DNA from: Leucobacter sp. CX169 | GTDB lineage: Bacteria > Actinomycetota > Actinomycetes > Actinomycetales > Microbacteriaceae | Reading direction: 5' to 3' | Assembly: GCF_017161405.1 (NCBI RefSeq) | Contig: NZ_CP071051.1 | Span: 1-64,000 of the forward strand | DNA length: 64,000 bases | In this document: positions 25,413 through 42,475 of the stretch, in pieces | Layout of the letters: each line of letters begins with the position of its first letter | Numbering within the stretch: the stretch's first letter is position 1 | Program-made: the position numbers and the translations under genes | Notes under the pieces: model-generated | The model's database searches: none | What the model saw: only the letters and a program-made list of their open reading frames with translations | Told to the model about the DNA's origin: nothing

Positions 25413-25420
25413 AGCTAAAA

Positions 25421-25453
25421 GGTTCGGATCAGATCATTGATCCGGACCTTTTT
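25421..25453 (+). terminator. Terminator downstream of tRNA-Leu
   Basis: GGTTCGGATCA (25421-25431) pairs with TGATCCGGACC (25438-25448), one G-T pair, 6-nt loop, followed by TTTTT. Confidence 0.88.
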
Positions 25454-25528
25454 CGTTTCCTGGGAGGCGTTGGTGGTTGGCTGAGGCCCGTTGGAGTCGT
25501 CAGCCGTCAGTTTCTGGCGGCACGCAAC

Positions 25529-25562
25529 AACGACAAATAACCCTTTCGGGCTATTCGTCGTT
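25529..25562. terminator. Hairpin downstream of the minus-strand transposase
   Basis: AACGACAAATAACCC and GGGCTATTCGTCGTT form a 15-bp stem with two imperfect pairs and a TTTC loop. It lies 30 bp beyond the transposase stop and probably terminates that operon, or marks the element end. Confidence 0.6.
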
Positions 25563-25591
25563 TGAGATATTCAGTTCAGGGGCGGGGAGGG

Positions 25592-27340: not shown

Positions 27341-28428
27341 CAGATTGCCTCCCCACGGAGGACAGCGACATAGTCGCTGGCGGGGAGAAACTCGCAGTGT
27401 TCCAGCAGCCGGGGCAGCTGTTCCATCTTCCTTACACCTGCGGCGTACAGCAGGTCCTTCATGGGGGTGCGGTTCTGGAGATGCCACACCAGCCAGGTGT
27501 TGCGCAGTCGATCGCTTCGCGGGCCGTTCCCCTTCCCCTCCGCGTTCTCAACGAAAGTGGAGAGCAGGTTCGAGTAGTCCTTGCGAGCGATGGGCCCCCA
27601 GAGGCGCTCACCCTTGGTGCAGTCCTCGGTGACGGCCAGCATCCATTCGTCCCAGTCGGGCAAGAGCGGGACACGACGGGTCCGCTTCCCTGGCACATCG
27701 ATCACAATGCCGGAGTTCGAGACATCTACGTGTGCTGAGGTGATCTGGGCGACTTCGCTTGAGGAAAGCCCCGCCCCAGCACACAGGGCGAGCATCGCGA
27801 CTCCGCGACGCCGCTTGAGTGGGTTGCTCTGGTTTGCGGCCCAGTTTCGGAACCGGTCCATTTCGGCCGCTGAGTACGGTGCCACAGAACTCTTCCGGTT
27901 TTGGGGCGTGTATTCGTAAGCATGTTCTTCCGGGCACAGGATCTTGCTGACCCGGTCCAGGTACGCGCGATAGTTTCGTCGGGTGCCTGGCTTGAGGTGG
28001 GACATTTCGTCGGTCACATACAGGTCGATCATCTGGCGCGACCAAATGATCTTCCCGTCGAGTGGGAGATGCTTCTCCATCACGACCCACTCGACGTAGG
28101 CGGCCGCGGTCGACTGAACGAGGCCGGCGGCGTACGGCAGCTGCGGCGCGGTAACAGATACTGCGTCCTCCACAAACTGTCGGATGCGGCCCCAAGTCTC
28201 CGGGCTCACCTTTGGGCTTCGCGTCCGCATGTGATTCATCACCTCCGGCGGAAGGTCGTAGTAACGGATTCCGCGCAACGCCTTCGCGGTCTTCGCGGTA
28301 GGGTTGCGAAACGTTCCGAGGTTCTCAAGCAGCTGCTTTCGATGCGTCGCCAATTCGGGATGCGGGGCGAACAGCATGTGCTCGTCGGACGTTGCGGGCG
28401 GGGTCTGAATAATCGTTGAGGTCTTCAC
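27340..28428 (-). CDS. Atypical tyrosine-recombinase-like protein
   Basis: 362 residues. An N-terminal SAM-like region (about 60-175, YVEWVVMEKHL) precedes a catalytic-type domain: RRRGVAMLALCAGAGLSSSEVAQI, a beta strand with VPLLPDWDEW, RSDRLRNTWLVWHL, and a C-terminal segment with LLEHCEFLPASDY. This follows the phage-integrase order, but the first catalytic arginine (GLR-x-SE) is Ser here and the H-x-L-R-H box reads D-R-L-R-N. A tyrosine near the end is in place. It may be a divergent active enzyme or a non-catalytic partner. First gene of a two-gene operon with the transposase. Confidence 0.68.
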   Translation of the reverse strand: MKTSTIIQTPPATSDEHMLFAPHPELATHRKQLLENLGTFRNPTAKTAKALRGIRYYDLPPEVMNHMRTRSPKVSPETWGRIRQFVEDAVSVTAPQLPYAAGLVQSTAAAYVEWVVMEKHLPLDGKIIWSRQMIDLYVTDEMSHLKPGTRRNYRAYLDRVSKILCPEEHAYEYTPQNRKSSVAPYSAAEMDRFRNWAANQSNPLKRRRGVAMLALCAGAGLSSSEVAQITSAHVDVSNSGIVIDVPGKRTRRVPLLPDWDEWMLAVTEDCTKGERLWGPIARKDYSNLLSTFVENAEGKGNGPRSDRLRNTWLVWHLQNRTPMKDLLYAAGVRKMEQLPRLLEHCEFLPASDYVAVLRGEAI

Positions 28429-28550
28429 GCCTGCAGTAATGGGCGGTGGCCGACAAACAGGCGTGTCTGCGGAATAAAAACCAGTTCGCCAGACGTATAC
28501 TCACTTCATCAGCAGCAAAATCGGCATCACTGTTGTGGAGGAGAGCTGGG

Positions 28551-29009
28551 TTGGCGACACGGAAGGGGTTCACGTTTGAACCGAGGGCGCTGACCGACGC
28601 ACCGAAACAGTTCGGGTCGATTAAGGCTCATCTTCGGCCGGCCGAAGGCGTTTCAATCGCCGATCCGAGATTTCAGGCGGCATTGATGCAGCATCTGCTC
28701 GCCAACGAAGTGCGTGAGTATTTGGGGAGCCATCAGCGTGACGTCGCGTGGTTCGCGTCGCCCGAGGCTGGGCATCCCGGGGTCAGCGTGGACCGAATGC
28801 GGCGCATGCTTCGCGGCGAGACGATGATGCAAGTCGCAGACATGATGATGATCACAAGCCTCGTGAACAATGCCAGCAGGATCGTGCAGGAGAGCGTCGG
28901 AGTCGACTTCGAAGAGGAGAAACTGCGCAAGCACGAGAACTGGCAGCTGCGGTACGCCATGGAGACGTGCACCTGCCCCGCGAGACATAAAGTCCCACCG
29001 CGCTGGTAG
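28551..29009 (+). CDS. Small HTH-like protein divergent from the recombinase operon
   Basis: 152 residues from TTG 28551, which is preceded by GGAGGAGAG. The product starts MATRKGFTFEPRALTD. A region around 85-120 (GVSVDRMRRMLRGETMMQVADMMMIT) looks like a Cro/XRE-type helix-turn-helix. The 122 bp between it and the recombinase gene must hold both divergent promoters. It may be the element's repressor or accessory DNA-binding protein. Confidence 0.6.
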   Translation: MATRKGFTFEPRALTDAPKQFGSIKAHLRPAEGVSIADPRFQAALMQHLLANEVREYLGSHQRDVAWFASPEAGHPGVSVDRMRRMLRGETMMQVADMMMITSLVNNASRIVQESVGVDFEEEKLRKHENWQLRYAMETCTCPARHKVPPRW

Positions 29010-29014
29010 CAACC

Positions 29015-29299
29015 TCATGATCCGGGGCTCTCGAGTGGACGCGACGTGGATCGCTCCGGCTCGGTAACCTTGATAGTGATGCCGCCCACGACCCGTACGC
29101 CGGGGATCTGTTGGAACAGGTCTCGCGGTTGGAGCAGGCTTTCGAGCGCCGCCTGGGGTGATTCGAGCGCCGTGCCGGCGACGATGAGTTGCCGGGCCTC
29201 GGTGTTCGGAATGCAGGCCGCAACCGCGGCCAAGTACAGACTCCCTTCGTCCAGGACGAACACGTCCACGGTCATGGTGCAGGTGAATCGAAGAGTCAT
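29015..29299 (-). CDS. Hypothetical protein
   Basis: 94 residues, not recognised. It has alternating beta-like and helical stretches (TCTMTVDVFVLDEGSLYL, ...GVRVVGGITIKVTEPE), no membrane segment and no clear motif. A ribosome site AAAGGCC precedes the ATG. The upstream gene, which is broken by an IS, ends 13 bp before, so they were one operon. Its stop lies 5 bp from the convergent HTH gene stop. Confidence 0.55.
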   Translation of the reverse strand: MTLRFTCTMTVDVFVLDEGSLYLAAVAACIPNTEARQLIVAGTALESPQAALESLLQPRDLFQQIPGVRVVGGITIKVTEPERSTSRPLESPGS

Positions 29300-29878
29300 T
29301 TGTTCTGGCCTTTCACGGGGTACGGCTGTCGGGGGTAGTCAGGTAGACGGGTCGCAAATGCAGCCCGGCGGGCAGCGGCCTGCCACGCAGATGGGCGACA
29401 CCGACCGTGCACGCCTCGGCGGTAGTGAACTGTTCCTCGGTGCGGCAGCTTCGGGTCCAGTACTGGCACTGCTCAGGCAACATGATCATTCGAGACTGCG
29501 TGGCGCCGGTGCGCGCGACCATGCGTGTGCGGCCAGGCAGCCCGAGTTCGAGCACGCAGGCGGCCGTGGTCCCGAGGACCTGGAACCAGACGCCTGTCAT
29601 GCCGGCGCTGATTACCGTCCACGGCCAATAGTCGCCGTCGATCGAATGCACCAGCTCCCGGGCCTGCGAGAGCCCGCCAGTGATGGGCTGCTCCTCATCG
29701 AAGTGGTTCGCCCGCCACAGCCACCCCTCCTCGGCATCGGTGAGCTCGAGAAGCGCGGTGTCCGGGCAGTAGACCGAGTCCGGGTGGTGTGGGCCCAGTC
29801 GGAGGGTGTCGGGCGCCTTGGAGGTCGGCGCGGCGGCGGATACCGGGGGTCTGATGCAGGAACTGGTGACAGTTCTAG

Positions 29879-30781
29879 TTAGGCCGCGAGGGCCAGGTCG
29901 TTGTTCATGATGGTCTCGAACTCGATCGGCGTCAAACGGCCCAGACGGACCTGGCGACGCCTGCGGTGATAGGTCCGCTCGATCCAGGTCACGATCGCGA
30001 TGCGTAGCTGTTCGCGCGTGGCCCAGGAACGTCGGTTCAGGACGTTTTTCTGCAGCAGGCTGAAGAACGATTCCATTGCCGCGTTGTCGCCGCAGGAAGC
30101 GACTCTGCCCATCGATCCGACGAGATTATGGACGGCAAGTTCGCGGCGCAGTTTCCTGCTTCGGAATTGCGATCCTCTGTCTGAATGGACGATACAGCCG
30201 TTCACGTTTCCGCGCATCCGGACGGCGTTGCGGACAGCTCGGACCGCGAGTGATGCCTTCATTCTCGAGTCGATCGAGTAACCCACGATCCGACCGCTGA
30301 AGGCGTCTTTGACCGCGCAAAGATAGAGCCGACCTTCGCTCGTTTTGTGTTCCGTAATGTCGGTCAGCCAGAGCTGGTTCGGCCGGGACGCCACGAACCG
30401 GTGACGCTCACGCCCGTGCTCGTCGATGACGACGCAGAGATCGTCGTGAACGGCGGGGCCAGACTTCTTGCCGTTCTTGCTCCGCTTCTTCCCGAACACA
30501 CTCCACCAGCCATTCGATGATGCGATCCGCCACGCGGTCCGATCCGACATCGCCTGGCCCTCCTCGCGGGCCTCGTCGGCGAGGAGCCGATACCCGAACT
30601 CCGGGTCGTCGCGGTGCGCGTCGAACAGCGCGTTCGCCCGATACGCCTCCTCGAGCTCCCGGCTTGTCACAGGATCACGTAGCCAGCGGTAGTAGGGCTG
30701 GCGAGCGAGCTTCAAGACCCGGCACGACACCACGACAGGGATTCCGTCGGCGGCGAGCTCGCTCACGAGCGGGTACATCAT
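29879..30781 (-). CDS. IS3 transposase OrfB (integrase core)
   Basis: 300 residues with an HTH_21-like region followed by the rve integrase core. Catalytic triad: Asp in LWLTDITEHKT, Asp in IVHSDRGSQFRS, Glu in AAMESFFSLLQKNV. The C-terminus IEFETIMNN is typical. The start ATG overlaps the orfA stop by 4 bp; a frameshifted OrfAB may be the active form. Confidence 0.92.
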   Translation of the reverse strand: MMYPLVSELAADGIPVVVSCRVLKLARQPYYRWLRDPVTSRELEEAYRANALFDAHRDDPEFGYRLLADEAREEGQAMSDRTAWRIASSNGWWSVFGKKRSKNGKKSGPAVHDDLCVVIDEHGRERHRFVASRPNQLWLTDITEHKTSEGRLYLCAVKDAFSGRIVGYSIDSRMKASLAVRAVRNAVRMRGNVNGCIVHSDRGSQFRSRKLRRELAVHNLVGSMGRVASCGDNAAMESFFSLLQKNVLNRRSWATREQLRIAIVTWIERTYHRRRRQVRLGRLTPIEFETIMNNDLALAA

Positions 30782-31071
30782 TTTCCCGGCAGATGAGCCT
30801 GGGACAGATACGCGGTCGCGCGACGCAGCACCTCGACCTCCTGCTCGAGGAGGCGATTGCGCTTACGGAGCTCGCGCAGCTCGGCGGAATCCTGCTTCGT
30901 CTCACCCGGCTGTTCGCCGGCTTCGATGCGGGCTTGACGCATCCACTTGTCGAGAGTTCCGACATGGACGCCGAAGTCCTTCGCGATCTGCGCGAGGGAG
31001 ACGTCTGGGTCGCGGTTCTGCGCGACCCGGACGACGTCGTCGCGGAACTCCTTGGGGAACGGCTTGGGCAT
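30778..31071 (-). CDS. IS3 transposase OrfA
   Basis: 97 residues: an N-terminal helix-turn-helix (KEFRDDVVRVAQ, VHVGTLDKWMRQA) that binds the element ends, and a C-terminal leucine-zipper-like coiled coil (ELRELRKRNRLLEQEVEVLRRA). Confidence 0.92.
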   Translation of the reverse strand: MPKPFPKEFRDDVVRVAQNRDPDVSLAQIAKDFGVHVGTLDKWMRQARIEAGEQPGETKQDSAELRELRKRNRLLEQEVEVLRRATAYLSQAHLPGK

Positions 31072-31324
31072 GATGACATCCTTCCAGGCCAGCCCTCTCG
31101 GCTAGCCATGTTTGATGTCACCAGTTCCTGCATCAGACCCCGGCGCGGCGGGGCGAAGTGTGGTGTTCATGCCCCAGACGCTAGAAACCGGTCGGCCGGG
31201 AAGCCAGCACCTGCCGCGCACGCCACCTGCACTTCCTGGTGCGGGCGTTCGAGCGTTCTGCTTACGGTGTCTGCACTTTCTGCTTACAAGCCCTGTAGTG
31301 CCCGCTCAATGGAAGGAAGTACGC

Positions 31325-32053
31325 ATGAACGACAGCATGGTTACCTTCGGAACGTGGAGGAAAGAAAACCCTGAAAAATGGGCGCAAGTCGAAGGCAGCG
31401 TGACCCGCAACCAGATGCGCACGCTGAAATTCCTCGACGCCCAGATCCACCTCACGCGGGAAGCCGGATCAGGAATAGCGCCACCGGATACCCCTGAAGT
31501 GCGCTGGCTGCGCCGCTGCGTCATCGTCTACCTCCACGTCATGGCGCACGGCATCCTCCCGACCGACGAGACGAGCGCGATGTGGGTGAAAAACCAACGC
31601 CGTGGCGCGCTCTGCGACTACCAAGTCGCGGCACTGCAACAGATCCCCGGCTGGCGGTGGCGGCCAAGGCGATCCAGCTGGGACGCGCGCGTACAGGAAC
31701 TCGGCGCCTTCCGCGAGGCGTACGGCAGAGACCCCCGAGTGCGCTCAGGCTGGGAACACGAGCGCGCGATCGCGCACTGGTGTCAGAGGCAACGCCAAGC
31801 TGCGCAGGACGGCAAACTCACACCGAACCAGATGTCACTGATCGATGGAGAGGGAGGGCAGCCGACAGGTGAGACTGCGTGGGCGGTGCCGACGTTCGCT
31901 GGCTCGTATGAACGCTGGTTTCGGGATTTCTGGGTCGAAATCGAGGTATCGGACGGAACTCGGGCTGCAATGCAACTTCAATCAGTCGGCCACGACCCGC
32001 ACGAAGTGATGAAGCTAGGCGGCACCGACGTTGGAAGGAGCGAACTTCAATAG
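31325..32053 (+). CDS. Helicase-associated (HA) domain protein
   Basis: 242 residues. The part at about 120-178 fits the HA repeat: W-x4-ELGAFREAYGRDPRVRSG, LAHWCQRQRQAA, GKLTPNQMSLID. This repeat usually sits behind superfamily 2 helicases, but no helicase is present here. The N-terminal 110 residues are unfamiliar. ATG 31325 follows GGAAGGAAGT. Its last 39 bp overlap the end of the convergent methyltransferase gene, so it may belong to that defence locus. Confidence 0.65.
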   Translation: MNDSMVTFGTWRKENPEKWAQVEGSVTRNQMRTLKFLDAQIHLTREAGSGIAPPDTPEVRWLRRCVIVYLHVMAHGILPTDETSAMWVKNQRRGALCDYQVAALQQIPGWRWRPRRSSWDARVQELGAFREAYGRDPRVRSGWEHERAIAHWCQRQRQAAQDGKLTPNQMSLIDGEGGQPTGETAWAVPTFAGSYERWFRDFWVEIEVSDGTRAAMQLQSVGHDPHEVMKLGGTDVGRSELQ

Positions 32054-33349
32054 ACCGCTACGAAGATTTGAAGCCCTATGGGTGTCGGGGAGAACACCAA
32101 ATCGTGGGGACACGTGAAGTACCTCGAAGGTTCCGCCCCCTGTCCACGAGACTTGATCTGTGATTCCACCAGAATCGACCCCATTGATAACAGCATTGAG
32201 CCTCGGCAAGGTGAAGTCCAAAACAGTTTGAGTGTTTCGCTCTACGGTCACCCACCGTCGGGCCATCTTGTGCGCAGTCGCAGCTGTCGTACCCGATCCA
32301 GCGAAAAGATCAACAACTAGGTCGGTCGGGTTTGAAGCTATGTGGATAATGCGTTCCAAAAGTTCTTCTGGCTTTGGTGTGTCAAAGACAGTATTTTCCG
32401 GGAACAGTTCAAGTAGGTGCCTCTTTGCGTCATCGTTAGTCCCAACGTCTGCAGAGCCCCATACGGTGAAAGGCACGAGTCCACGTAGCTGACTCGGGAA
32501 CAACTTGAGGCGAGGCATCCCAGCGCCGCTCTTGGGAAACCAGATTCTGTCATCGGCGAGCAAGTCAGCATAAGTGCGTTCTGTTGCGTACCAAGAGCGG
32601 CCTCTTGGGGGGCGAACAACAGTGCCTGCTGGTGTCACAATGTCATACTGCTGGGCACGGCGGTACCCCGGGGCGGTGAAGGGCGCGTCTGACCATGGTC
32701 CGCGAGGGTCGTTGTCTCGATTGCGCAGGTTCTCCTCGTCTTTTGCGAGTAAGTTCCTGCTCGTCTTCCATCTGCGGGGGCCCGAGGGCGCATATACAAG
32801 AATCGTGTCATGATTCGAGCTAAACGCGGCACGAGAATCGCGAGTGGTTCGTTTCTGCCAAATCACTGACGCTACGAATGAGTCTTCGCCAAACACCTCA
32901 TCCAGCACCATTCGTGCTCGATGAACTTCGGAATCATCGAGGTGGACCCAAACTGATGCATCCTCACGGAGCAGTGGCTTCAGGGCAAGGAGGCGGTCAC
33001 GAATCATACTTAACCACATGGGCCGCGCCAGGGAGTCCCCGTACTGGTTGAACGTCTTTTGGGTGTTGAACGGCGGGTCGATGTAGACGAGGCGGATACC
33101 GTCATCGAATACGTTCGAGTTCTGCAATGCCTCGATCGCATCGAATCCGTCGCCGACAACAATTGCATTCGAATGCCTGTCAAGTGGGGCGTTGCCGAAC
33201 AGCTCGTACTTGACGGGCTTAGAGAGCCTTCTGTCCGAGGGCTGCACCCAGTCGTATGAGGTGACCCCCGACGCGCGAAGTGTCAGGTGCTTGTTTGGCC
33301 AAGTTAGTTCGACGCCTTGGTTCATTGGTTTCTTCACTTCGCTAGTCAT
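32015..33349 (-). CDS. Site-specific DNA methyltransferase, beta class (M1)
   Basis: 444 residues. The catalytic motif IV DPPFNTQKTF comes first (about 90) and the SAM-binding motif I DLFAGSGTTAATA near 345, the order of beta-class amino-methyltransferases. DPPF favours N6-adenine. The target recognition region is probably at 150-310. N-terminal LTWPNKHLTL is typical of type III Mod-like enzymes. ATG 33349 is chosen without a good ribosome site; GTG 33388 would add 13 residues. It is divergent from the Dam-like gene and lies next to McrBC-like genes. Confidence 0.85.
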   Translation of the reverse strand: MTSEVKKPMNQGVELTWPNKHLTLRASGVTSYDWVQPSDRRLSKPVKYELFGNAPLDRHSNAIVVGDGFDAIEALQNSNVFDDGIRLVYIDPPFNTQKTFNQYGDSLARPMWLSMIRDRLLALKPLLREDASVWVHLDDSEVHRARMVLDEVFGEDSFVASVIWQKRTTRDSRAAFSSNHDTILVYAPSGPRRWKTSRNLLAKDEENLRNRDNDPRGPWSDAPFTAPGYRRAQQYDIVTPAGTVVRPPRGRSWYATERTYADLLADDRIWFPKSGAGMPRLKLFPSQLRGLVPFTVWGSADVGTNDDAKRHLLELFPENTVFDTPKPEELLERIIHIASNPTDLVVDLFAGSGTTAATAHKMARRWVTVERNTQTVLDFTLPRLNAVINGVDSGGITDQVSWTGGGTFEVLHVSPRFGVLPDTHRASNLRSGLLKFAPSNVGAA

Positions 33350-33481
33350 GCGCGGTCTCGTTGTTGAAGGGAGTACGCCGCCGCCCACACAAATACTCTG
33401 GCTGCACTGCGCACTAGACGCGACTCAGCCGCTTTGCACACAGCACCCTTGTCAGTGGTTCCATGGAGAATAGGATGACAT

Positions 33482-33500
33482 CCGCCAGTGACACTGGCGG
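33482..33500. promoter_or_regulatory. Perfect 19-bp palindrome upstream of the Dam-like gene
   Basis: CCGCCAGTG-A-CACTGGCGG: two perfect 9-bp arms around a single A, 11 bp before the GGAGA ribosome site of the next gene and within the divergent spacer of the two methyltransferases. Likely an operator, or an RNA hairpin controlling translation. Confidence 0.6.
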
Positions 33501-33521
33501 TCTGGCGCGACGGAGATAGCT

Positions 33522-34394
33522 ATTTTTGACAACCTGGCAACAGCCCCGCTTCGAGCCCGCAAGCCATTCGTACGTTGGGTCGGCGGTAAGTCGAGACTTC
33601 TGCCTCGAATTCTCCCACACATTCCCCCCTCTTTCGGCAGCTACCATGAACCCTTCCTCGGGGGCGGGGCTGTGTTTTTTGCGGTCCAAGACCGCGTTCG
33701 GGGGACTGCAAACCTGGCCGACCTGAACAGGCACCTCGTGAACGCCTGGGTCGCAATGCGTGACCATCAGGACGAGCTTGAGCCACTGCTTGATTTTCAC
33801 AAGGAACGAGATTCAAAGGAGTACTTCTACGAGGTGCGGGCACAGGTGCCGACCGAGCTTCTTGAGAGCGCTGCGCGGTTCCTTTACCTAAACGGGACCT
33901 CGTGGAACCATCTGTGGCGAGAGAACTCAAAAACAGGGGCCATGAATGCACCATGGGGTGATCGGCAGTTCAAAGGTTTCGACGCAGAAACGATGGAGTC
34001 TTTGCGGAACTCGCTCGTAAATACTGAGATTCGCAAAGAGGATTTCAGGACGGCCCTTGAACGTGTAGAAGCAGGGGACTTTGTGTACCTCGACCCTCCC
34101 TATTTGCCCGTATTTTCGCTTCCAGGAACTGAGAAAGAGCCCACAGCGAAGTTCAACAAGTACACCGCCAAGACGTTTGAGCAATCTGACCTTGAGGAAC
34201 TTGCGGGTATCTGTGAACTTCTCACGAGTCGAGGCATCAAATGGATCATGTCGAATCGGGACACGGCGGGAGTTCGTGCAATTTTTGATTTCGCCGATAT
34301 TGTCAGCTTTACGACACATCGTTCATTGGCTGCTCAGAGCAAGCGAGAAGTGGAGTCACACCACTCTCCGGAGGCCATTGTTATTGGAAGGTAG
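33522..34394 (+). CDS. Dam-like adenine-specific DNA methyltransferase (M2), non-canonical start
   Basis: About 290 residues of the D12/Dam class. Motif X/I region [14 protein letters not shown] and [11 protein letters not shown] precede catalytic motif [10 protein letters not shown]. The conserved N-terminus lies upstream of the first GTG (33672), so translation must start earlier. Between the in-frame stop TGA 33489 and KPFVRW there is no ATG, GTG or TTG. The best candidate is ATT 33522, five bases after GGAGA; CTG 33534 is an alternative. It ends 6 bp before the McrB-like gene, so it is an operon with it. Confidence 0.8.
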
Positions 34395-34400
34395 GCGTCC

Positions 34401-36122
34401 GTGGTCGCACAAGCAGTTGATGCAATTTGGGTCTGGCAATTCAATGCCAGTGCGTTTCGGAGCACCTTTGGTCGATTCTCAGATGAAGGTGCCGGAAATA
34501 GTAGGTACACGAAGGACTACCTCCAGGTAGGAGGTGAGTGTTCAGAACTACTCAAGCGCAAGTTCGGTGTTGCGGCGCAGAAAGACGCTCGACGCGACAT
34601 CGAATATGTTTGGCCAGGCGGAAACGCCGCGGGCTTCATTTCCTATTCAGCAGACCGTTATCACGTCGCCTGGCCGAAAGACAAAGCGCCCGCTCCGTGG
34701 AAGTTATCGACCCAGCCAAGCGGGTCCGCCGGGGAAGCAATCCCTGGAAACCCGAGCGCTCCTTCCGTTGTTGAAGCGGATCGTGAGTGGGACAAACTTG
34801 ACGCACAGGCCCTGGAACCAATTCTTGTGGCAGTTAAATTGCGAGACGAATCCACGCGTCTTCATATTCGCGCATATTTAGGAAATCCTCCCCCAGGTAT
34901 GGAGTGGTCGTCTTCACAGAACCTTCCTGATGCTGTGCGCGAAACGGCCTTGAAGTTGAACGCAAAACGAGGATGCGTTTCGTTGGACGTTGGTGGCGGA
35001 GCAGCTGCCGAGCCCGAGGTTATGGCTCTGATTGAACACTTACAGGACAATCCGAACCTACTTCTTGTTGGCCCACCTGGCACTGGCAAGACCGTGAGGC
35101 TTGAGCAACTCACCCAGTTTGTGGAGCATAGTTCTGGCGGTCTCTCCTTTGACCCGGATCAGGCTCACGATGCATGGAGTGAAGATACTGACGTCCTGCT
35201 TGGCAAGGCCAGTGTCGTCGTTTTACACCCTTCGTATACCTACGAAAACCTAGTTGTAGGACTGCTTCCTGAACCGGTCAAGGGTGGCGTGGCCGTACGT
35301 GCCACCCCAGGCCCATTGGTGAACCTCGCCAAATTCGCAAGCAAGCCAGGAAATCGCGCATTGCTTGTGTTGGATGAGTTCAACCGCGGAAACGCGGCAG
35401 CTATCTTGGGAGACACCCTGGCGTTACTCGACAAGGACAAGCGGGATCGCGCTCATATCAGCTTGCCCTTTTCGCAACTTGGGATTGAGGTACCTGCAGA
35501 ATACGCCGATGGGCAATCCTCTCGAGTGCCTGCCAAGTTCACGCTGCCAAAGAACCTCTGGATTGTGGCGGCGATGAATTCTTCTGACCGCTCTGTTGCG
35601 CCACTTGACGCCGCATTGCGTAGACGGTTCTCAATTGTCGAGGTGCCACCCGACTACGAGGTGTTGGCTCAGCGACTGCGGGTAGTTGAGGAGACAGAGC
35701 TCGAGGATGACTTCGCGGATTGGACGCCGGAGCATGTCTCATCACTTGCAGTCAAACTTCTTCGAGCTATTAACGACAGAATTGACGCCGTGCTGGGCTC
35801 GGACTTCAGGCTCGGGCAATCAAATTTTTGGTCGGTTGATGGGGCGAGTAGAGATGAAGCAATCTCGAGCCTTGCGTCCGCATTTGATTACCGTCTAGTT
35901 GCAACCTTGAAACTTGCACTTCAGGACGACGACGGGGCTCTTGCTGCAATCTTGCGTGCAGGTACATCCCAGGCGCCTGCCTCGGGTGCCGCTATAGTCG
36001 CGCACTGGAAGGGGGCAGACCCCTCACTTGGTACCTACGCGTCAGCACGGTTGCATCTACGGGAGGTCTCGAAACGCTCGGTTGAAGAAATGCATGCCGA
36101 ATTGTTTCGTCAAGCGAGCTAA
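34401..36122 (+). CDS. McrB-like AAA+ (GTPase-type) restriction subunit
   Basis: 573 residues. The N-terminal 200 residues (VWQFNASAFRSTFGRFSDEG..., FGVAAQKDARRDIEYVWPGG) do not match a specificity domain I know and presumably read DNA. The AAA+ module has Walker A GPPGTGKT (about 227-234), Walker B LVLDEFNRGNAAAI, sensor NSSDRS and arginine finger region LRRRF. DEFNRGN is the McrB-type version. GTG start with GGAAGGTAGG upstream; the stop is 2 bp before the McrC-like gene. Confidence 0.87.
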   Translation: MVAQAVDAIWVWQFNASAFRSTFGRFSDEGAGNSRYTKDYLQVGGECSELLKRKFGVAAQKDARRDIEYVWPGGNAAGFISYSADRYHVAWPKDKAPAPWKLSTQPSGSAGEAIPGNPSAPSVVEADREWDKLDAQALEPILVAVKLRDESTRLHIRAYLGNPPPGMEWSSSQNLPDAVRETALKLNAKRGCVSLDVGGGAAAEPEVMALIEHLQDNPNLLLVGPPGTGKTVRLEQLTQFVEHSSGGLSFDPDQAHDAWSEDTDVLLGKASVVVLHPSYTYENLVVGLLPEPVKGGVAVRATPGPLVNLAKFASKPGNRALLVLDEFNRGNAAAILGDTLALLDKDKRDRAHISLPFSQLGIEVPAEYADGQSSRVPAKFTLPKNLWIVAAMNSSDRSVAPLDAALRRRFSIVEVPPDYEVLAQRLRVVEETELEDDFADWTPEHVSSLAVKLLRAINDRIDAVLGSDFRLGQSNFWSVDGASRDEAISSLASAFDYRLVATLKLALQDDDGALAAILRAGTSQAPASGAAIVAHWKGADPSLGTYASARLHLREVSKRSVEEMHAELFRQAS

Positions 36123-36124
36123 TA

Positions 36125-37390
36125 GTGACTAGTCGGTACTTGTTTCGCGAGTACGAGGGACAGCAATTTGATCCGGAACTGCGCGGAAAGCTCGCGGCGG
36201 GGGCGCAGCAAGTTGCCGCGACGCTTCGGCCGCGTCTCGCGCAGTTCTCTGAAGCGGGCGACAGCGTCTCTTTCCAGAATCTCATTGGTTCATTCGCTTT
36301 GCCAGGAGGAGGCGTTGTTGAAGTGGCGCCGAAGATTGCGGCTTCGGATTGGACCACTGCGGTAGTGCATCTGCTGTCCGCAGAGACGCGACTTACGGTT
36401 TCTGGTTCGCAGCGATCACAGTCCACTGCACGGAAAGATGATCTCACTGCAGCCATTGCGATTGAGTACGCCAGGCGCCTGGAGCGAGCACTTCGGGCCG
36501 ATGGCCCGATTCAGGTGTATGAAAGACGAACTCAGCGAACGCGACGCCTGAATGGGCGCCTCAACGTGACCCAATGGATGCGAAATGTAGCCTCAGACCC
36601 AGCACTTTTCCCGGTCACGCGGGACGAGTTGAGTCCTGACAATGATTTCACACGGGGGTTGTCAATCGTTGCCGGAGTGCTGGGCAGGTCGGCGGCAGGG
36701 GGTGAAGCCTCGTCCAGGCTTCGGCGCCTGCAGTCGGCGATTATTCCCGGACATCCTCTGCCTGCATTTGTAAATCCTTCAGTAGGTGGCCGGCTCCTGC
36801 CGACGCAGTGGGGGAGCTATCGTTCGACCTGGGACATCGCGGCACCGATCTTGCGCAATCGATCGGTAGTAGGAGACCCCGGTCACTCCAACGGCCTCGA
36901 AGTTGCTGTTGAACCCTGGCCACTTCTCGAGACGCTACTTGAGCGGACGCTACAAAAGCTCACCATGCAACGCAGCGACCTGACGTTTGAACCGAAGCGA
37001 TCCCATGCACTCCTGAAGCTGGGCACTGGAAGGGTCGCGCAAAGTGTCGAACCGGACGGAGCACTTTCATGGAGTCATGGAGGAATCGCCGCGACATTCG
37101 AAGCTAAGTACGCAGCGATGTCGGGAGCCCCGCAGAGGGAGCATGTATTCCAAGCGCTTGCGACTGCGGCCGCCCTGAATTCCCCACTTTCGGTACTGGT
37201 CTATCCGACAGACGACGCTCCGAAGTGGTACGAACTACAAGGTTTCCGCGGCAGGCCCACCCATCTTGTGACCGTTGGGTTGTCCCTGTTCAAGTACAGG
37301 CGCGGAGAAGGTGACGCCTCCCGTGCGGACCTGATTCGCGCGCTAATTGAGGAAGCGCAGACCCGAAGTCAACCTTCCTTGGCGGCGTAG
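36125..37390 (+). CDS. McrC-like nuclease subunit
   Basis: 421 residues of the McrC/LlaJI R2 type. The N-terminal half is a beta-rich domain that contacts McrB. The C-terminal half has a PD-(D/E)xK pattern: Asp in VEPDGALSW (about 310) and E-A-K in ATFEAKY (about 327), then VFQALATAAAL. It forms the cleavage subunit, activated by nucleotide hydrolysis of the McrB-like ring. GTG start just after the McrB stop. Confidence 0.85.
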   Translation: MTSRYLFREYEGQQFDPELRGKLAAGAQQVAATLRPRLAQFSEAGDSVSFQNLIGSFALPGGGVVEVAPKIAASDWTTAVVHLLSAETRLTVSGSQRSQSTARKDDLTAAIAIEYARRLERALRADGPIQVYERRTQRTRRLNGRLNVTQWMRNVASDPALFPVTRDELSPDNDFTRGLSIVAGVLGRSAAGGEASSRLRRLQSAIIPGHPLPAFVNPSVGGRLLPTQWGSYRSTWDIAAPILRNRSVVGDPGHSNGLEVAVEPWPLLETLLERTLQKLTMQRSDLTFEPKRSHALLKLGTGRVAQSVEPDGALSWSHGGIAATFEAKYAAMSGAPQREHVFQALATAAALNSPLSVLVYPTDDAPKWYELQGFRGRPTHLVTVGLSLFKYRRGEGDASRADLIRALIEEAQTRSQPSLAA

Positions 37391-37536
37391 CATTCCCTAG
37401 ACCGTCACGAGCGTGTGGCTGGGCCTAGCATCGACGAGAAAGTTCACTTGCAACTCAATGCTCGCTAATGGCTTTCGTCTGCTTAGCGTCAGTGAGCTGC
37501 TGCGGTGATTTCGGACAGCGGAATTAGTGGATTCTT

Positions 37537-38424
37537 CTACGCTGCCAAGGCTGGCTGCTGATAACCATAGTGGACTTCGTTGGGTCGACGATAGCCGAGC
37601 GCGGAGTGCCGGCGTCGACTGTTGTAGAACCCCTCGATGTAGCGGATGACGTCGCTGCGCGCTTGTGCCTTGGTCGCGTACACGGTGCGGTAGACGCGCT
37701 CGTTCTTGAGCATCGAGAAGAATGATTCCGCCATGCTGTTGTCCCAGCACACGCCCGTCTTGCCCATCGATGAGCGCATCCCCAGACTCGCCACCAAAGC
37801 CCTGAAGTCGGCCGAGGTATAGACGGAGCCGCGGTCTGAATGCCAGATCGCGTCTGGCTCGATCAGGGTCGTCGCGGCGGCATTCTTGAGCGCGTCAGCG
37901 ACCAACTCGGTGCGCATGTGATCAGCGATGGACCAGCCGACCACTCTCTTTGAGTAGCAGTCGATGACCGTGGCGAGGTAGATGAACCCCTGCCACGTGT
38001 GGATATAGGTGATGTCGCCGACGAATTTCACTCCGGGCCGATCTGCGGTGAAGTCCCGCTTGAGCAGGTCCGGCAGGTTCGCCGCATCATCACCGTCGGT
38101 CGTGACCCGGAACGGGCGCGGCTGACAAGCGACCAGGGCCTCACTGCGCATGATCTGCCGCACCAGCTCCGCCGAGCACTCGGTGCCCTCGCCCCAAAGA
38201 TCGGCGTGGATGCGTCGGTACCCGTAAGTACCGTCGGACTCTTCGAAGAAGTGCTGAACCCGGGCTGTCAACGCCACCCTGCGGGCCGCGGTGGCCGACT
38301 GCGGGCGCTTCAACCAGTCGTAGAAGCCCGAGGCCGACACGGTCAACCACAGGCACATCTTCCAGACCGGGTTCGTCTCGGCCGGGTCGTTCTTCTGGGA
38401 ATCGATGTACTCGTACCGGCTCAC
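37537..38424 (-). CDS. IS3 transposase OrfB
   Basis: 295 residues. HTH_21-type region (FYDWLKRP, GTYGYRRIHADLW), then integrase core with Asp in KFVGDITYIHT, Asp in WHSDRGSVYTS and Glu in SMAESFFSMLKNE. The GTG start overlaps the TAG that closes orfA in its alternative frame. Confidence 0.92.
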   Translation of the reverse strand: MSRYEYIDSQKNDPAETNPVWKMCLWLTVSASGFYDWLKRPQSATAARRVALTARVQHFFEESDGTYGYRRIHADLWGEGTECSAELVRQIMRSEALVACQPRPFRVTTDGDDAANLPDLLKRDFTADRPGVKFVGDITYIHTWQGFIYLATVIDCYSKRVVGWSIADHMRTELVADALKNAAATTLIEPDAIWHSDRGSVYTSADFRALVASLGMRSSMGKTGVCWDNSMAESFFSMLKNERVYRTVYATKAQARSDVIRYIEGFYNSRRRHSALGYRRPNEVHYGYQQPALAA

Positions 38425-38713
38425 TACCGCTGCTCCCTCGCAAAGTAAGCCGTTGCTTTTTTAGGAACGCAGTCTCTGCCCGTAGTTCCTGATTCTCCCG
38501 CTCGAGCTCTTTCAGTCGGGCCCGTTCAGTGAGCGTCAGCTCGGTCTCAGTGCCGCCATTCTTCTCGCGGTACTTGATCAACCAGTTCCGCAGCGTCTCC
38601 GGTCCGACGCCATACGCGACGGCGACGTCCTTGATGGGCTTCGATGTGGAGATCACCTCCAGACACAGCTCGTCCTTGAACTCCTGGGTGAAGCGTCGTC
38701 GTGATGCGGTCAT
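38424..38713 (-). CDS. IS3 transposase OrfA with A6G slippery run
   Basis: HTH part (RRRFTQEFKDELCLEV, YGVGPETLRNWLIKY) and coiled coil (ERARLKELERENQELRAETAFLKK). After FLKK the gene contains A-AAA-AAG (38456-38462 on the minus strand). Staying in frame gives a long unrelated tail to 38141. A -1 shift gives the family-like ending KATAYFAREQR and a stop exactly at the orfB start. I therefore give the shifted extent; programmed slippage and a plain indel are both possible. Confidence 0.75.
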
Positions 38714-38831
38714 GCTGCAGATCTCTCTTTCAGTAGCGCCCTCAGCTTAAGAGGGCCCACTGTCCGAGATCACCGCAGCAGGTCACAGCCATATTGTCAG
38801 CGTTTCGATGGCTGTGGACTCCAGAAAGGCG

Positions 38832-39616
38832 TCAGTCTTCTGGGCCAAGTTTGACAGTCTTGCTCGGCGACAAGCACCTGCGGCAGCTTCGGTACTCACC
38901 CAACCTCTCCAGCTTCCCTGGAGCCACCATTCTTGGCATCCGGGCAGGCGCCGCATCGACTGCCTGCGCCCTCCATCGCGCGCTTCTCAGTGCACTGGCT
39001 AGCTCCGCCCGCACCTCACCCCACGCCAGCTCCCGGTTCGCTTGATACTCGATGGCGTTGCATGTCGCTTCGTGAACGACTGTCTCCGCCCCGGCGATCG
39101 CGTTGACGACGAGGCGCTTTCCTTCAGCGAGTTGTTGGCGGACCGTTTCCTGCTCGACGGCGATCTGCGCAGGGATCGCGGCCAGTGCGGCTGCAGCCTC
39201 AGCAGGGGTGCGGGGTAGGGCGTAGGGCGAAAGGCACCACGGGGAAGGCTGGGAGTCTTCGCGCGCGACTTTCACTAGATCATCGAGCGCAAGCTTCAGA
39301 GTTTTGCCGTCTCCGAACTCGAGCAGGACTTTGACTCCCGAGAGGACGCCGAGCTGCGCGCCGTCCGGCGTCTCGAACGACTTTCCGACATGCGCCTCGT
39401 GGATCGAGGCTGCGAGAACGGAAGGTATTCCCGGATTGCTTTCGGCGAAGATGGTTTCAAGTCTCCAATCTGCACAAAGCGACCTGGGTCCGCGATTGCG
39501 TACCTACGAGAGTGAGCGCTCTCCGCTGGCATACGTAGAGGCGGAAACTGCGACTTGATCACCGCGCGGCCATGCCGCAAGTACATCCCGTAGGCGTCTG
39601 TCAGCGGTTCTTCCAC
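38832..39616 (-). pseudogene. Frameshifted hypothetical gene downstream of the PIN-like gene
   Basis: Two open frames join. The first from GTG 39616 reads MEEPLTDAYGMYLRHG... to about 39450. The second reads ..RLETIFAESNPGIPSVLAAS, HEAHVGKSFETPDGAQLGVL, GVKVLLEFGDGKTLKLALDD and on to 38832 with helical, Ala-rich sequence. The frames overlap at 39505-39430, where an indel must lie. A shorter relative of the middle domain is encoded at 41600-41743. Function not recognised. The right IS3 copy lies 50 bp from its end. Confidence 0.55.
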
Positions 39617-39622
39617 CCTGAA

Positions 39623-40216
39623 TCATTGACGAGGCCACTGAAGCTTCGGTGGCGGATCGATGAGTGGGCGCTCTGCATCCCGTAACTGTGCGTAGTAGGC
39701 GTTCTTTGCGTCTGATGTGATGGTGCCTTCAGATGCCGCGGCCTCGAGGAAGGTTCTTGTTACCATTCCTTGCCAAACTTGTGGTGTGACTAAGCGCAAA
39801 TGGCGTGAATCAGGAGTTTGCGTTGCCGTGCAAAAATCTCGAACGCGTCGGTCTTCCGTCAACATGAAGACAATCTCCGCCTCAAACCTCTGCGAGCAAA
39901 TGGCGATGGACTGCGACTCACCAAGATGCTGAGCTCGACTATCTTCGCTACTCATGAAGAAGTTGGTCTGGACGTCAAACACCAGGGCTTCCTCCTCACC
40001 CTCTGGCACCAATGCATCTCCAAAAATCTCTTCGCAGCGATTGAGATGGTCAGGGATGTTGAATTCAATTTCTGAACGGACTTTTTCTGCCCACACTGGA
40101 GGACGTCCGGTTCGAGTAACAAATGACTCGAGAAGATCCAGGCGATCTATGACTGCAAAATTCCAGAGTAGCCCTGTGTCTGCAACAAAGAATCGTCGCG
40201 GAGGGGTGGCGCTCAC
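39623..40216 (-). CDS. PIN-like domain protein (putative toxin nuclease)
   Basis: 197 residues beginning MSATPPRRFFVADTGLLWNFAVI. The early Asp in VADTG, the acidic residue in HLGESQSIAI and Asp in MLTEDRRVRDF are spaced as in PIN-fold ribonucleases. Start overlaps the stop of the XRE/ImmA gene by 4 bp, the arrangement of COG2856 antitoxin-type genes with a PIN-like partner. Activity as an RNase toxin is inferred. Confidence 0.7.
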   Translation of the reverse strand: MSATPPRRFFVADTGLLWNFAVIDRLDLLESFVTRTGRPPVWAEKVRSEIEFNIPDHLNRCEEIFGDALVPEGEEEALVFDVQTNFFMSSEDSRAQHLGESQSIAICSQRFEAEIVFMLTEDRRVRDFCTATQTPDSRHLRLVTPQVWQGMVTRTFLEAAASEGTITSDAKNAYYAQLRDAERPLIDPPPKLQWPRQ

Positions 40217-41370
40217 AGAAGCGCAAGGAAGTCGGCAGCAGCTTCCTCATCAGAGACGGTCATTGCAGGCTGCAGCTCTTCCACAGGCACTCCCAGCATC
40301 CATGCGAGACAGTCCGGTGCTAGTCGGCGGGATTCCACTCCCTCTGTATGCGCCGAGACAAGGCGATCAGGGAATCGTGGGGTCCGCCAGAAACCCCTTC
40401 GGTTCTCTACCGCATGTTGCCCGTACATCTCAGTGAATAATCCATTCAATTCAACCTGTGAGAGGTGGACTTGGAGAGAATTCTTTGTTGAGTTTGCTCG
40501 CCGGGCCACAGCGTCGGCACCAACACCGTGTTCCCATGCAGCTCGTGCAAAAGTTCTCGGATCGCTTGTTGTGAAGTCGATCATCGAAGCCTTTGGCATC
40601 AGGAAGTCGGCAGCAAATCCATTCGCGAAGGTTTCTGAATCGCGTGTGTCCAGGTCATGATCGGGATCGTGTTGGAAAAGGTCATCGAAAAGCAAATGCC
40701 CGACTTCGTGCATGACTGCGTATACCGCGGAGTACCAACTACCCGTTTGCACGGTTACAATCACAGAATTCCCGAGCACCTCAAATGCCTGTGCCTGAGC
40801 TCGATTGGTCTCGATACCGTCGACAATTGCTACGTCAATGCCAAGTTCGCCCTCAAGAAATGCGGGCAAATCCAGCACAATGTCTCTGTACTCAGAGTTG
40901 CACCAAAGCTTGCGAAGTTCTGCGGCCAGCACGCGTCCCGGCGCATAATCTTGCGGTGTGCCCGTTGGTGCCCCCAGCGCGATGCGTGCCCGTTCGAGTC
41001 GGCCATTGCCCACGAGTTCTGCCTGAGTGTAGGCAGAAGAAACTGCCCTCACTCGCCGTAAGCAATCCTCCCAATCGGCAACATGCTCACCATCTACAAA
41101 CTCGTGGCGAGCTGCCACCCGGGGCTCATATGCGGGATGTGACCCTGTAATGATGAAGTACGCCTCAAGAGCGAGTGCGTCTGCGATCAGCGCGATTTCC
41201 TCAGAAGTAAATTGGCGATCGCCACTCAGGGATTTACTCAGCTTCGACTTATCAAATGCCGAGGCCCCTGCAGCCTGGAGTGACCGCACAAGATCTTCTT
41301 GTGTTAGCTGTAACTGCTCGAGACGTCGCTTGATGCGCGCGCCAACAGGCACCTCTTTCGACGTGGACAT
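40213..41370 (-). CDS. XRE-family regulator with ImmA/IrrE metallopeptidase domain
   Basis: 385 residues. The N-terminal helix-turn-helix (about 8-65: IKRRLEQLQLTQEDLVRSL, DKSKLSKSLSGDR) is followed by an ImmA/IrrE zinc-peptidase domain with HEVGHLLF (about 218) and a downstream acidic segment ETFANGFAADFLMP that supplies the third ligand. Such proteins are antitoxins or repressor-cleaving regulators. ATG 41370 is chosen because the family HTH begins there; no strong ribosome site. Coupled to the PIN-like gene. Confidence 0.82.
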   Translation of the reverse strand: MSTSKEVPVGARIKRRLEQLQLTQEDLVRSLQAAGASAFDKSKLSKSLSGDRQFTSEEIALIADALALEAYFIITGSHPAYEPRVAARHEFVDGEHVADWEDCLRRVRAVSSAYTQAELVGNGRLERARIALGAPTGTPQDYAPGRVLAAELRKLWCNSEYRDIVLDLPAFLEGELGIDVAIVDGIETNRAQAQAFEVLGNSVIVTVQTGSWYSAVYAVMHEVGHLLFDDLFQHDPDHDLDTRDSETFANGFAADFLMPKASMIDFTTSDPRTFARAAWEHGVGADAVARRANSTKNSLQVHLSQVELNGLFTEMYGQHAVENRRGFWRTPRFPDRLVSAHTEGVESRRLAPDCLAWMLGVPVEELQPAMTVSDEEAAADFLALL

Positions 41371-41599
41371 ACCCAATTGTCTCAGTAAGTTGCGAAATCC
41401 GCAACATCTTGATCGTGCTGGTGTGACTCTCTGGCCAATTGACGTTTTGATCTGACGTATACGGAGACCTATGTCATTGTCGCGGGACTTCGAGCTAGCC
41501 ATGGGTCACCGTATGCGGAGGCTGAGTCATTGACTCTGCCAGCTTGGGCGTAGAGTCAAGGGCTCCATCGGGTGGGCTGCGCATTGTTGGTTGCAACCA

Positions 41600-41743
41600 T
41601 TACCCAAGTCTCACGGTCTCGCCGCCTTCGAACTCGAGCAGGACTCTTACCCCGGTGAGGGCGCCAAGCTGCGCGCCGGCGAGCGTCTCGAACGACTTGC
41701 CAAGGTGTGTTTCGGTGATCGAGGTGGCGAGAACGGACCGCAC
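41600..41743 (-). CDS. 47-residue protein, short paralogue of the domain at 39300-39430
   Basis: The GTG at 41743 lies 3 bp after the stop of the HEPN/CBS-like gene, so it could be translated by coupling. The product reads MRSVLATSITETHLGKSFET and then LAGAQLGALTGVRVLLEFEGG, ending VRLG. It is clearly related to the middle of the frameshifted gene at 38832-39616 (SVLAASIHEAHVGKSFE, GAQLGVLSGVKVLLEF). Either a genuine small domain protein or a decayed copy. The 229 bp between it and the XRE gene show nothing. Confidence 0.5.
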   Translation of the reverse strand: MRSVLATSITETHLGKSFETLAGAQLGALTGVRVLLEFEGGETVRLG

Positions 41744-41746
41744 AGG

Positions 41747-42475
41747 TCAGGCCTGCATTTGCGCGTAAAGCACGGCCAGGTCGGCGCGGGAGCATATCCG
41801 TTGCGGGGATTGGCCCACCTTTCCAAGCAGGAGCAGGGCTGCCGGTGGCTCGAGGCCTGCCTCCGCCTGGCCAGAAAGAAGATTGATCGCCTGAACTGTC
41901 GTCGTCGTCGGGATGACGCCCAGTACCCGATCACCGGTCTCGGCAAAAGCGAGCACTTTCTCGATAGGCGTGCTCTCGACGACCCCGCCGTGCTCAATAA
42001 GGTTCGAGGCGAACCAGCGGGCTACCGCGTTCGTGGTTATCAGCCTGTGACCGCTATCTGCCCGCACGGGAGCTTGTGAGAAATCCATGATGGTGACCAG
42101 CTCGAGAAATTCTCCGATGTCGTCGTCCGGCAGGAAAATTCGGGGTTGCCCGTAATCCCTCAGCGCATCGATGAGGAGCGGCGGTCTCTCCAGGTGCCTG
42201 TGGAGCTTGGTGATGGCGTCAACTGTGTCTTCGCGAGGATCAGCGATAGGCGCCCCATTGAGGTAGCCCTTGTGGCTGATCGCGTTTCGAAGCTTCGCGA
42301 AGGCCCTCAATTGATCCTTCTGGCTGAGAAGTAGAGTGTCCGAATTTGAAACCAAGTCGCTGAACGGGGCCCAGTCATTTCGGTCATCCCGCCTACCCTG
42401 CTGGCGGGCAAGTATCTCTTCGATGTCTGCAAAGGCGGTAAGAAACCTTTGGGCATTTGTTTCGTTCTCGACCAC
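41747..42475 (-). CDS. Protein with HEPN-like motif and CBS-like pair
   Basis: 242 residues from GTG 42475, which has GGAGGA five bases upstream (a longer TTG start at 42502 lacks one). The N-terminal helical part (1-80) contains RNAISH (about 63-68), fitting the HEPN ribonuclease motif R-x4-6-H. The C-terminal part (about 105-235) has two repeats resembling CBS units (DIGEFLELVTIMDFSQAPVR, TTNAVARWFASNL; TPIEKVLAFAETGDRVLGVI, SRADLAVLYAQM) that would bind an adenine nucleotide. Function inferred only. Confidence 0.62.
   Translation of the reverse strand: MVENETNAQRFLTAFADIEEILARQQGRRDDRNDWAPFSDLVSNSDTLLLSQKDQLRAFAKLRNAISHKGYLNGAPIADPREDTVDAITKLHRHLERPPLLIDALRDYGQPRIFLPDDDIGEFLELVTIMDFSQAPVRADSGHRLITTNAVARWFASNLIEHGGVVESTPIEKVLAFAETGDRVLGVIPTTTTVQAINLLSGQAEAGLEPPAALLLLGKVGQSPQRICSRADLAVLYAQMQA

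Follow-up and report, generated by a model that had tools for sequence, protein, structure and literature searches.

The window analysed here (positions 1 to 64,000 of contig NZ_CP071051.1 of Leucobacter sp. CX169) carries at 32015-37390 two dissimilar DNA methyltransferase genes, M3 and a Dam-like gene, next to genes for McrB-like and McrC-like subunits. We consider it likely that this cassette encodes a modification-blocked, LlaJI-like restriction-modification system, in which two N6-methyladenine (6mA) methyltransferases serve the two strands of a non-palindromic site. Judged from sequence comparisons, the four genes belong together. We find nine distinct cassettes in total, five of this McrBC type and four of an HNH type, and the latter keep both methyltransferases and the McrB N-domain, but use an HNH nuclease as the cutter and lack the AAA+ domain and McrC. 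The parts of the window cassette are as follows.

32015-33325, minus strand: M3, a beta-class amino-methyltransferase resembling type III Mod (DPPF, FAGSGTT), assigned from profile and motif matches
33326-33521: spacer between the divergent M3 and Dam-like genes, in which a perfect inverted repeat (9+1+9) occupies 33482-33500
33522-34394, plus strand: Dam-like (D12, DPPY) adenine methyltransferase, with a possible ATT start at 33522 and GGAG at 33512-33515
34401-36122, plus strand: McrB-like subunit, with an N-terminal B3-like domain and an AAA+ GTPase-type domain (GPPGTGKT, DEFNRGN, MNSSDRS)
34401-34997, plus strand: N-terminal part of McrB (residues about 1-199), predicted to be a B3-like recognition domain and homologous to the HNH-enzyme N-domain
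35106-35183, plus strand: FDP...HDAW element (McrB residues about 236-261), in the AAA+ core after Walker A and common to the HNH enzymes
36125-37390, plus strand: McrC-like nuclease subunit, with an intact PD...ExK motif (P310 D311, E326 x K328)

The four genes lie where the original prediction had placed them, with their catalytic motifs intact. Its proposed operon of the Dam-like gene with McrB and McrC is borne out by consecutive genes on one strand, separated by 6 and 2 nucleotides, respectively, with M3 transcribed divergently.

Co-inheritance of the Methyltransferases and Restriction Genes

The five McrBC-type cassettes, which come from the window, Homoserinimonas sp. OAct 916, Leucobacter edaphi, Leucobacter zeae, and Rhodococcus sp. 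P-2, share one layout. The HNH-type cassettes are in Pseudolysinimonas yzui, on a plasmid of Paracoccus sp. Arc7-R13, and on the IMG/VR contigs 2818991436_000004 and 2898807436_000001. Gene order and orientation are constant within each type (5/5 and 4/4); at all nine loci, M3 is divergent, the Dam-like gene directly precedes the effector, and the catalytic motifs of M3, Dam, and effector are intact. On this co-occurrence at 9/9 loci, we reject independent adjacency of the methyltransferases.

The expected co-inheritance of the methylases with the restriction genes was tested from both sides and held in each. In a family sample of 299 genomes, 14 have an M3 match at 1e-40 and four have one at E below 1e-200 (next best, 2.9e-136); in each of these four, a Dam-like gene lies divergent to M3 and the effector bears the McrB N-domain. 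The Paracoccus plasmid and the two IMG/VR contigs were likewise found through M3, and across the seven loci with at least 66% identity that were found, or recovered a second time, through M3 (the window, Homoserinimonas, Leucobacter edaphi, Pseudolysinimonas, the Paracoccus plasmid, and the two IMG/VR contigs), the divergent Dam-like gene and the effector with the same N-domain are present in 7/7. From the other side, a nonexhaustive N-domain pattern scan of 84,980 species genomes gave 40 stretches that matched two peptide patterns, of which five were retained; both methyltransferases are present at all five, and three coincide with loci from the family sample. Among 104 further M3-type loci (L034-L054, L056-L060, L063-L140), a Dam match at 1e-10 is seen only in L127, at 27-29% identity, where L034-L054 offer short flanks only, such that a more distant Dam gene there would be missed. 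The near absence of Dam from these loci indicates that the M3-Dam pairing belongs to the close relatives of M3.

The cassette is rare in the sampled genomes, plasmids, and phage records. McrB matches at 1e-10 occur in 21 of the 299 family genomes, but they span the full length in just three, namely the window, Homoserinimonas, and Leucobacter edaphi. In Pseudolysinimonas the match is confined to the N-domain, and in the remaining genomes to AAA+ parts. The N-domain was found in 0/395 other genomes of a phylum sample and 0/395 of an order sample, with no more than seven first-look candidates scored per genome. In IMG/VR, a four-row alignment of the N-domain found no locus, and a later search returned only the two already known through M3. 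Annotated phage records contain no full-length relative of the HNH enzyme of locus L061, and the plasmid records contain only the one from Paracoccus.

The McrB and McrC Subunits

The McrB-like protein matches AAA_5 at 2.9e-13 and, over residues 269-485, solved structures of E. coli McrB (5.3e-22); it contains the Walker A motif GPPGTGKT, a Walker B motif with DEFNRGN, and MNSSDRS, which is of the NxxD type. The McrC-like protein matches the Pfam McrBC family at 1e-17, and the PD...ExK motif is kept in all five cassette McrC proteins, the window included. A model of the window McrC (predicted local distance difference test score, pLDDT, 77.6) aligns with Thermococcus gammatolerans McrC at Z 18.4 (root-mean-square deviation, rmsd, 5.4; 334 residues aligned) and with E. 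coli McrC at Z 15.2. The locus thus has one feature of type IV McrBC, an McrB-like AAA+ protein together with an McrC nuclease of the PD-(D/E)xK class.

The N-terminal ∼200 residues of McrB have no Pfam match, and a profile of this N-domain against the PDB sequences returned two rows that we take as chance (inner tegument protein, 0.039; alpha-hemolysin, 0.92). The domain is homologous to the first ∼200 residues of the HNH enzymes, with 32% identity over 189 residues (101 bits) between the window and Paracoccus. We modeled it with AlphaFold2 on an eight-sequence alignment (pLDDT 77.0; predicted template modeling score 0.77). Foldseek places the N-domain of Helicobacter pylori LlaJI.R1 first (2.9e-3, probability 1.00) and BfiI-C second (1.1e-2). 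VIA-align likewise ranks LlaJI.R1 at the top (6c5d; Z 9.1, rmsd 3.3, 125 residues aligned), followed by EcoRII-N (9.0), BfiI-C (8.5), UbaLAI-B3 (8.2), with plant B3 proteins ranking below these. Of the 23 listed rows, 22 belong to B3-domain proteins, judged by title or, for some plant rows, taken by us to be such; the remaining row has Z 2.2. The N-domain is therefore predicted to adopt a B3 fold, with the LlaJI.R1 N-domain as its best match within an almost purely B3 list. The original prediction had called this domain unfamiliar, which does not apply to the fold as modeled. B3-domain restriction enzymes bind specific unmodified sequences, and LlaJI is one system of this kind. The binding of a specific unmodified sequence by LlaJI is described in the available text of PMC12707154 and PMC1459862.

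The Methyltransferase Pair

The open reading frame (ORF) of M3 spans 32015-33388 on the minus strand. The likely start, at MNQGVELTW, gives 32015-33325, and the Homoserinimonas relative also begins with MNQG. The protein matches Pfam N6_N4_Mtase (8.9e-38) and PADLOC MTase_III (9.1e-97), contains the motifs DPPF and FAGSGTT, and aligns to Mod over most of its length; its best solved relative is a type III Mod subunit (1.6e-36), with EcoP15I Mod at 1.1e-23. The predicted beta-class (DPPF) methyltransferase beside McrBC is thus present, and we amend its description to a divergently transcribed enzyme of the type III Mod kind. Relatives of M3 on five other plasmids (39-44% identical by tblastn) are all Mods in an operon with a DEAD/DEAH helicase gene. 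Their five Res proteins have no match at 1e-3 in the DNA examined for the nine cassettes, in a search that detected two control loci, and the Mod-Res pairing of type III systems was not found in the window, where M3 is Mod-like. Taken together, the helicase-associated relatives and the failure to find Res at the nine cassettes mark M3 as a Mod-type enzyme that changed partners.

The target-recognition region of M3, defined as the stretch between the DPPF and FxGxGT motifs, where the target-recognition domain of beta-class enzymes lies, has a mean identity of 80% within the nine cassettes (minimum 71%) and 79% between HNH-type and McrBC-type cassettes. The same region is 40% identical to that of five type III Mods, which share 40% among themselves; the catalytic X-I region is 81% identical within the cassettes and 60% to the Mods. 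The conservation of the recognition region irrespective of the cutter suggests that all nine systems probably read one target site.

The Dam-like gene was listed as an ORF at 33672-34394, but this ORF begins at a GTG inside the gene. No stop interrupts the frame further upstream, where both motifs that are otherwise missing are found, so the gene runs from about 33522. Even the shortened ORF matches MethyltransfD12 at 2e-22 and the TIGR00571 dam model at 1.2e-36 (126.8 bits vs a cutoff of 114.85), and the full-length protein matches solved DpnII-type and Dam structures, at best 3.1e-36.

Exchange of the Cutter

The HNH enzymes are 402-452 residues long. An HNH_2 domain is detected in the Pseudolysinimonas protein (2.7e-9), the four-sequence profile matches 6yex (3e-12), and SHIVPW...NGICLS...DxAF is present in 4/4. 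Between their N-domain and nuclease, these enzymes have a further element in common with the cassette McrBs, an FDP motif after which most of the proteins have HxAW or a similar sequence. An hhalign comparison of two HNH rows (Pseudolysinimonas and L061) with the five McrBs gives this element a probability of 92.9 and an E value of 3.6e-7 over 30 columns. In McrB, it lies within the AAA+ core, between Walker A and the HPSYTY segment; in the HNH enzymes, which have no Walker A, it directly follows the N-domain in two and lies about 50 residues further on in the other two. The insert is absent from 12/12 McrBs that could be parsed from Walker A to an HPSY-type segment among 24 noncassette loci (L005-L020, L145-L152), and LlaJI R1, as aligned with the window McrB, likewise lacks it. 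In a shuffle test of the segment that includes FDP, none of 1000 shuffles reaches the observed score in 8/20 pairs, and 1 to 34 of 1000 do so in the other 12, among which are all five Paracoccus pairs. A residual Walker A in the HNH enzymes was sought but gained no support: the segment before FDP scores no better than shuffles in 9/10 pairs, and in the tenth, Pseudolysinimonas vs Rhodococcus, 14/2000 shuffles reached the score.

The most economical explanation is a loss of most of the AAA+ domain in the HNH form, with the FDP insert retained, although the opposite course, the insertion of an AAA+ segment into an HNH ancestor, may have been taken instead. We tentatively propose, as an idea that could well prove wrong, that the methyltransferase pair and the reader form a portable self/nonself module with an exchangeable cutter, GTP-driven McrBC or HNH, acting at the same site. 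The HNH version would have arisen from McrB by loss of the motor, with FDP...HDAW as a kind of relic of the ATPase that was lost. In the Dam and N-domain trees, a single weakly supported branch separates the McrBC types from the HNH types (86/86 and 74/71). The M3 tree mixes them, grouping Leucobacter edaphi McrBC with two HNH types (95/95), but the one-clade test gives p-AU 0.069. The trees thus decide neither how often the cutter was exchanged nor in which direction.

Comparison with Known Systems

As a LlaJI reference, we used copies on two Lactococcus plasmids (loci L145 and L146), each with two cytosine methyltransferases, R1 of 585 residues and R2 of 414 residues, all oriented alike; in one copy, the PADLOC models match both R1 and R2 over their full length. 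Two methyltransferases, an McrB-like subunit, and an McrC-like subunit are found in one locus in LlaJI and in 5/5 McrBC-type cassettes, and in both systems the McrB-like subunit has a B3-fold N-domain, by prediction in the cassette. The two systems differ in that the LlaJI methyltransferases are of the 5-methylcytosine class, while the cassette has the D12 and N6_N4 classes and no C5 methylase match, and in that the four LlaJI genes are co-oriented, while M3 is divergent in 9/9 cassettes. R1 aligns with the window McrB only in the AAA+ part (31% over 235 residues, E 1e-23), and we therefore call the cassette LlaJI-like in its working plan. The LlaJI-like reading of the original prediction stands in respect of this plan, the co-inheritance, and the B3 N-domain that matches LlaJI.R1; descent from LlaJI is not demonstrated.

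An adenine-type precedent is LlaI of the Lactococcus plasmid pTR2030, whose methylase is fused and FokI-like. LlaI is a McrBC relative that recognizes an unmodified sequence and needs two methyltransferases, according to the accessible part of PMC3874153, and a title cited in the available text of PMC3990576 calls it a "type II A methylase". It differs, in a comparison by description only, in having three restriction ORFs and a short McrB-like protein of 337 residues (PMC1459862, available text). The accessible text of a McrBC census (PMC11090510) reports methyltransferase association in all three McrB branches and calls it likely ancestral; its clades of McrB GTPases with predicted methyltransferases resemble the cassette, including the NxxD motif seen in the window McrB. 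The same text leaves the details of the NxxD methyltransferase branch for a later paper, and the terms HNH, LlaJI, and adenine do not occur in the main text. By the census, methyltransferases next to McrBC are thus not rare, which amends the premise that McrBC normally lacks its own methylase. With LlaI as an adenine-type precedent, the plan as such is not new.

BfiI, EcoRII, and UbaLAI resemble the cassette in their B3 recognition domain, predicted for the cassette (Z 8.2-9.0), and in showing B3 readers on different nuclease types. They have no McrBC, whereas the cassettes put HNH or McrBC behind one reader family and one methyltransferase pair. The nucleases of these three enzymes are of the phospholipase D (PLD) or PD-(D/E)xK type. 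The BfiI nuclease is described in the available text of PMC4081073. M3 matches Mod of type III (Mod/Res) systems over most of its length, but the cassette adds a Dam-like methyltransferase and another restriction subunit, with no Res found. Compared with type IV McrBC of the E. coli type, the cassettes differ by two methyltransferases, presumably cognate, in 9/9. Within the literature searched, which omits most subscription papers and REBASE, we found no description of B3 with HNH or of McrBC with this methyltransferase combination; what is new there is the cutter exchange behind one reader and one methyltransferase pair and the pairing of a Mod-like with a Dam-like enzyme.

Alternative Explanations

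Most characterised McrBC systems are modification-dependent, and the HNH half of the sister enzymes resembles 6yex, presumably the modification-dependent VcaM4I. It is thus conceivable that the window holds a type IV McrBC that merely sits beside two methyltransferases or that reads 6mA in the manner of the YTH-type McrB of Thermococcus. The N-domain of Thermococcus gammatolerans McrB targets 6mA DNA, as given in the available text of PMC7680126. Such an enzyme would be self-destructive beside methyltransferases that accompany the N-domain in 9/9 cassettes, and the predicted B3 fold of that domain, which has no Pfam domain in its 200 residues, is the one used by site-specific enzymes; we consider this explanation improbable. 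Still less credible is the chance adjacency of two unrelated units, with M3 as an orphan methyltransferase of the type III kind and Dam joined to McrBC in a unit of its own. The opposite strand of M3 and the helicase partners of its plasmid relatives (5/5) would fit two units, but the divergent M3/Dam pair recurs in 9/9 cassettes, whose sources include Actinomycetota and a plasmid of an alphaproteobacterium, and no relative of the five Res proteins is found in the DNA examined for any of them.

An unlikely, though more serious, alternative is that the system is as we propose but silent or broken in this host, the cassette being a relic whose Dam start was lost. The Dam frame has no ATG, GTG, or TTG before the conserved KPFVRW motif. 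The start codons of translation table 11 near the N-terminus (33510-33540) are ATA, ATT, and CTG, and the best candidate by sequence is the ATT that follows GGAG by 6 nucleotides, one of the permitted but rare starts of that table. The activity of the window cassette hinges on the use of this start. The M3-Dam start gap is also longer, at 196 nucleotides vs 38 to 106 (for the chosen ORF starts) in seven of the eight other loci; the Rhodococcus row has only 13 nucleotides from overlapping ORF starts and is not comparable. The gap contains the perfect inverted repeat CCGCCAGTG-A-CACTGGCGG (33482-33500), which is possibly an operator or a foreign insert. The repeat is absent from the seven other readable intergenic regions, one of which, in locus L062, has a different 7+5+7 repeat, and no conserved operator or target sequence could be read from the eight readable loci. 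On the other hand, all four reading frames and their motifs are intact, the ATT after GGAG offers a possible start, and an active McrBC without Dam should kill the host, such that three intact genes next to a nonfunctional Dam would not be expected to persist.

We prefer the modification-blocked, LlaJI-like reading, and several points besides the Dam start weigh against it. Foldseek gave nothing at E ≤ 0.001 for the N-domain model, and the B3 call draws on eight sequences with Z near 9, which is little above the usual best of models without a clear match. The N-domain has no detectable sequence similarity to that of LlaJI R1 (hhalign probability 0.1), nor has the nuclease to LlaJI R2 (BLASTP E 0.16, hhalign probability 0.2), which does not exclude common descent. 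The window N-domain is 32-36% identical to those of the HNH types and 33-36% to those of the Leucobacter edaphi and Rhodococcus McrBs, which is lower than expected if all systems read exactly one site. LlaJI is proof that a plan of this kind can work, in that its R1 binds the site and both R subunits are required in vivo. In the same 2006 study, however, no GTPase activity was seen for R1.LlaJI, and R1/R2 cleavage was not achieved in vitro (PMC1459862, available text). The motor steps of the proposal below are consequently borrowed from E. coli McrBC.

Genomic Neighborhood

The cassette lies between two different IS3 elements, as the original prediction held; the transposase ORFs 29879-30781 and 37537-38424 both match the rve domain and are 32% identical over 280 residues.

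29879-31071, minus strand: left IS3-type element (ORFs 29879-30781 and 30778-31071)
37537-38713, minus strand: right, different IS3-type element (ORFs 37537-38424 and 38141-38713)

A relative of the left element (68-74% identical) adjoins the Leucobacter edaphi cassette (L022, 10913-12078). Further left, the region 25592-28428 contains a weak phage-integrase-like gene (27340-28428) beside a gene for a 631-residue protein, and relatives of the two (37-41% and 31%) also flank the Homoserinimonas cassette (L021, 1750-4448 and 11122-11970). These genes are perhaps parts of a multirecombinase element that carries such cassettes. The ORF 31112-32053, whose end is convergent with M3, has a helicase-associated (HA) domain (5.6e-11) and no relative at 1e-4 in the DNA examined around the eight other cassettes. 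Beyond the right IS3 element, 40213-41502 encodes a Peptidase_M78 (ImmA/IrrE-like) domain and a weak helix-turn-helix match, and a short gene with no Pfam match follows. The G+C content in 2-kb windows is 54-59% in the cassette, 60-64% in the windows starting at 25001-30001, and 56-61% in those starting at 37001-42001, a one-sided contrast that carries little weight.

At the other loci, a further DPPY-type methyltransferase-like ORF lies near the Homoserinimonas cassette (L021, 13062-14105; by eye), and two tandem DUF6998 genes follow the Pseudolysinimonas cassette (L023, 9231-10159). The plasmid that carries the Paracoccus cassette (L055) is mobilizable, and the neighbors of the cassette there are genes for quorum sensing and type IV secretion. 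On the IMG/VR contigs, inspection of the translations by eye shows an integrase-like gene on 2818991436_000004 and a portal-like gene on 2898807436_000001.

Proposed Mechanism and Implications

Type III Mods of the EcoP15I type mark one strand. This property, the dissimilarity of the two methyltransferases, and the analogy with LlaJI lead us to propose a non-palindromic site served by two strand-specific enzymes. M3 and the Dam-like enzyme would each methylate adenine on one strand of this site, such that both daughter duplexes stay marked; both strands would need marks because replication otherwise leaves one daughter unmarked for a nuclease that cuts bare sites. The B3-like N-domain of McrB would bind the site only when it is unmethylated, the AAA+ ring would use GTP, under stimulation by McrC, to move on the DNA, and McrC would cut. 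In the sister systems, the same reader would be joined to the HNH nuclease, with no motor needed. We infer the base and strand marked, the asymmetry of the site, the block by methylation, GTP use, translocation, and an anti-phage role.

In LlaJI-type systems, a methyl-dependent motor nuclease has been turned into a methyl-blocked one, and the HNH enzymes, which have the same reader family and methyltransferases, provide a natural control for the McrBC form. Digestion with an HNH enzyme should yield the target sequence, and with it the McrBC form could be assayed. With these cassettes, restriction with and without a motor becomes comparable, possibly at a single site, and they show a way in which type III methyltransferases, type II enzymes, and the machinery of type IV systems may come to exchange parts.

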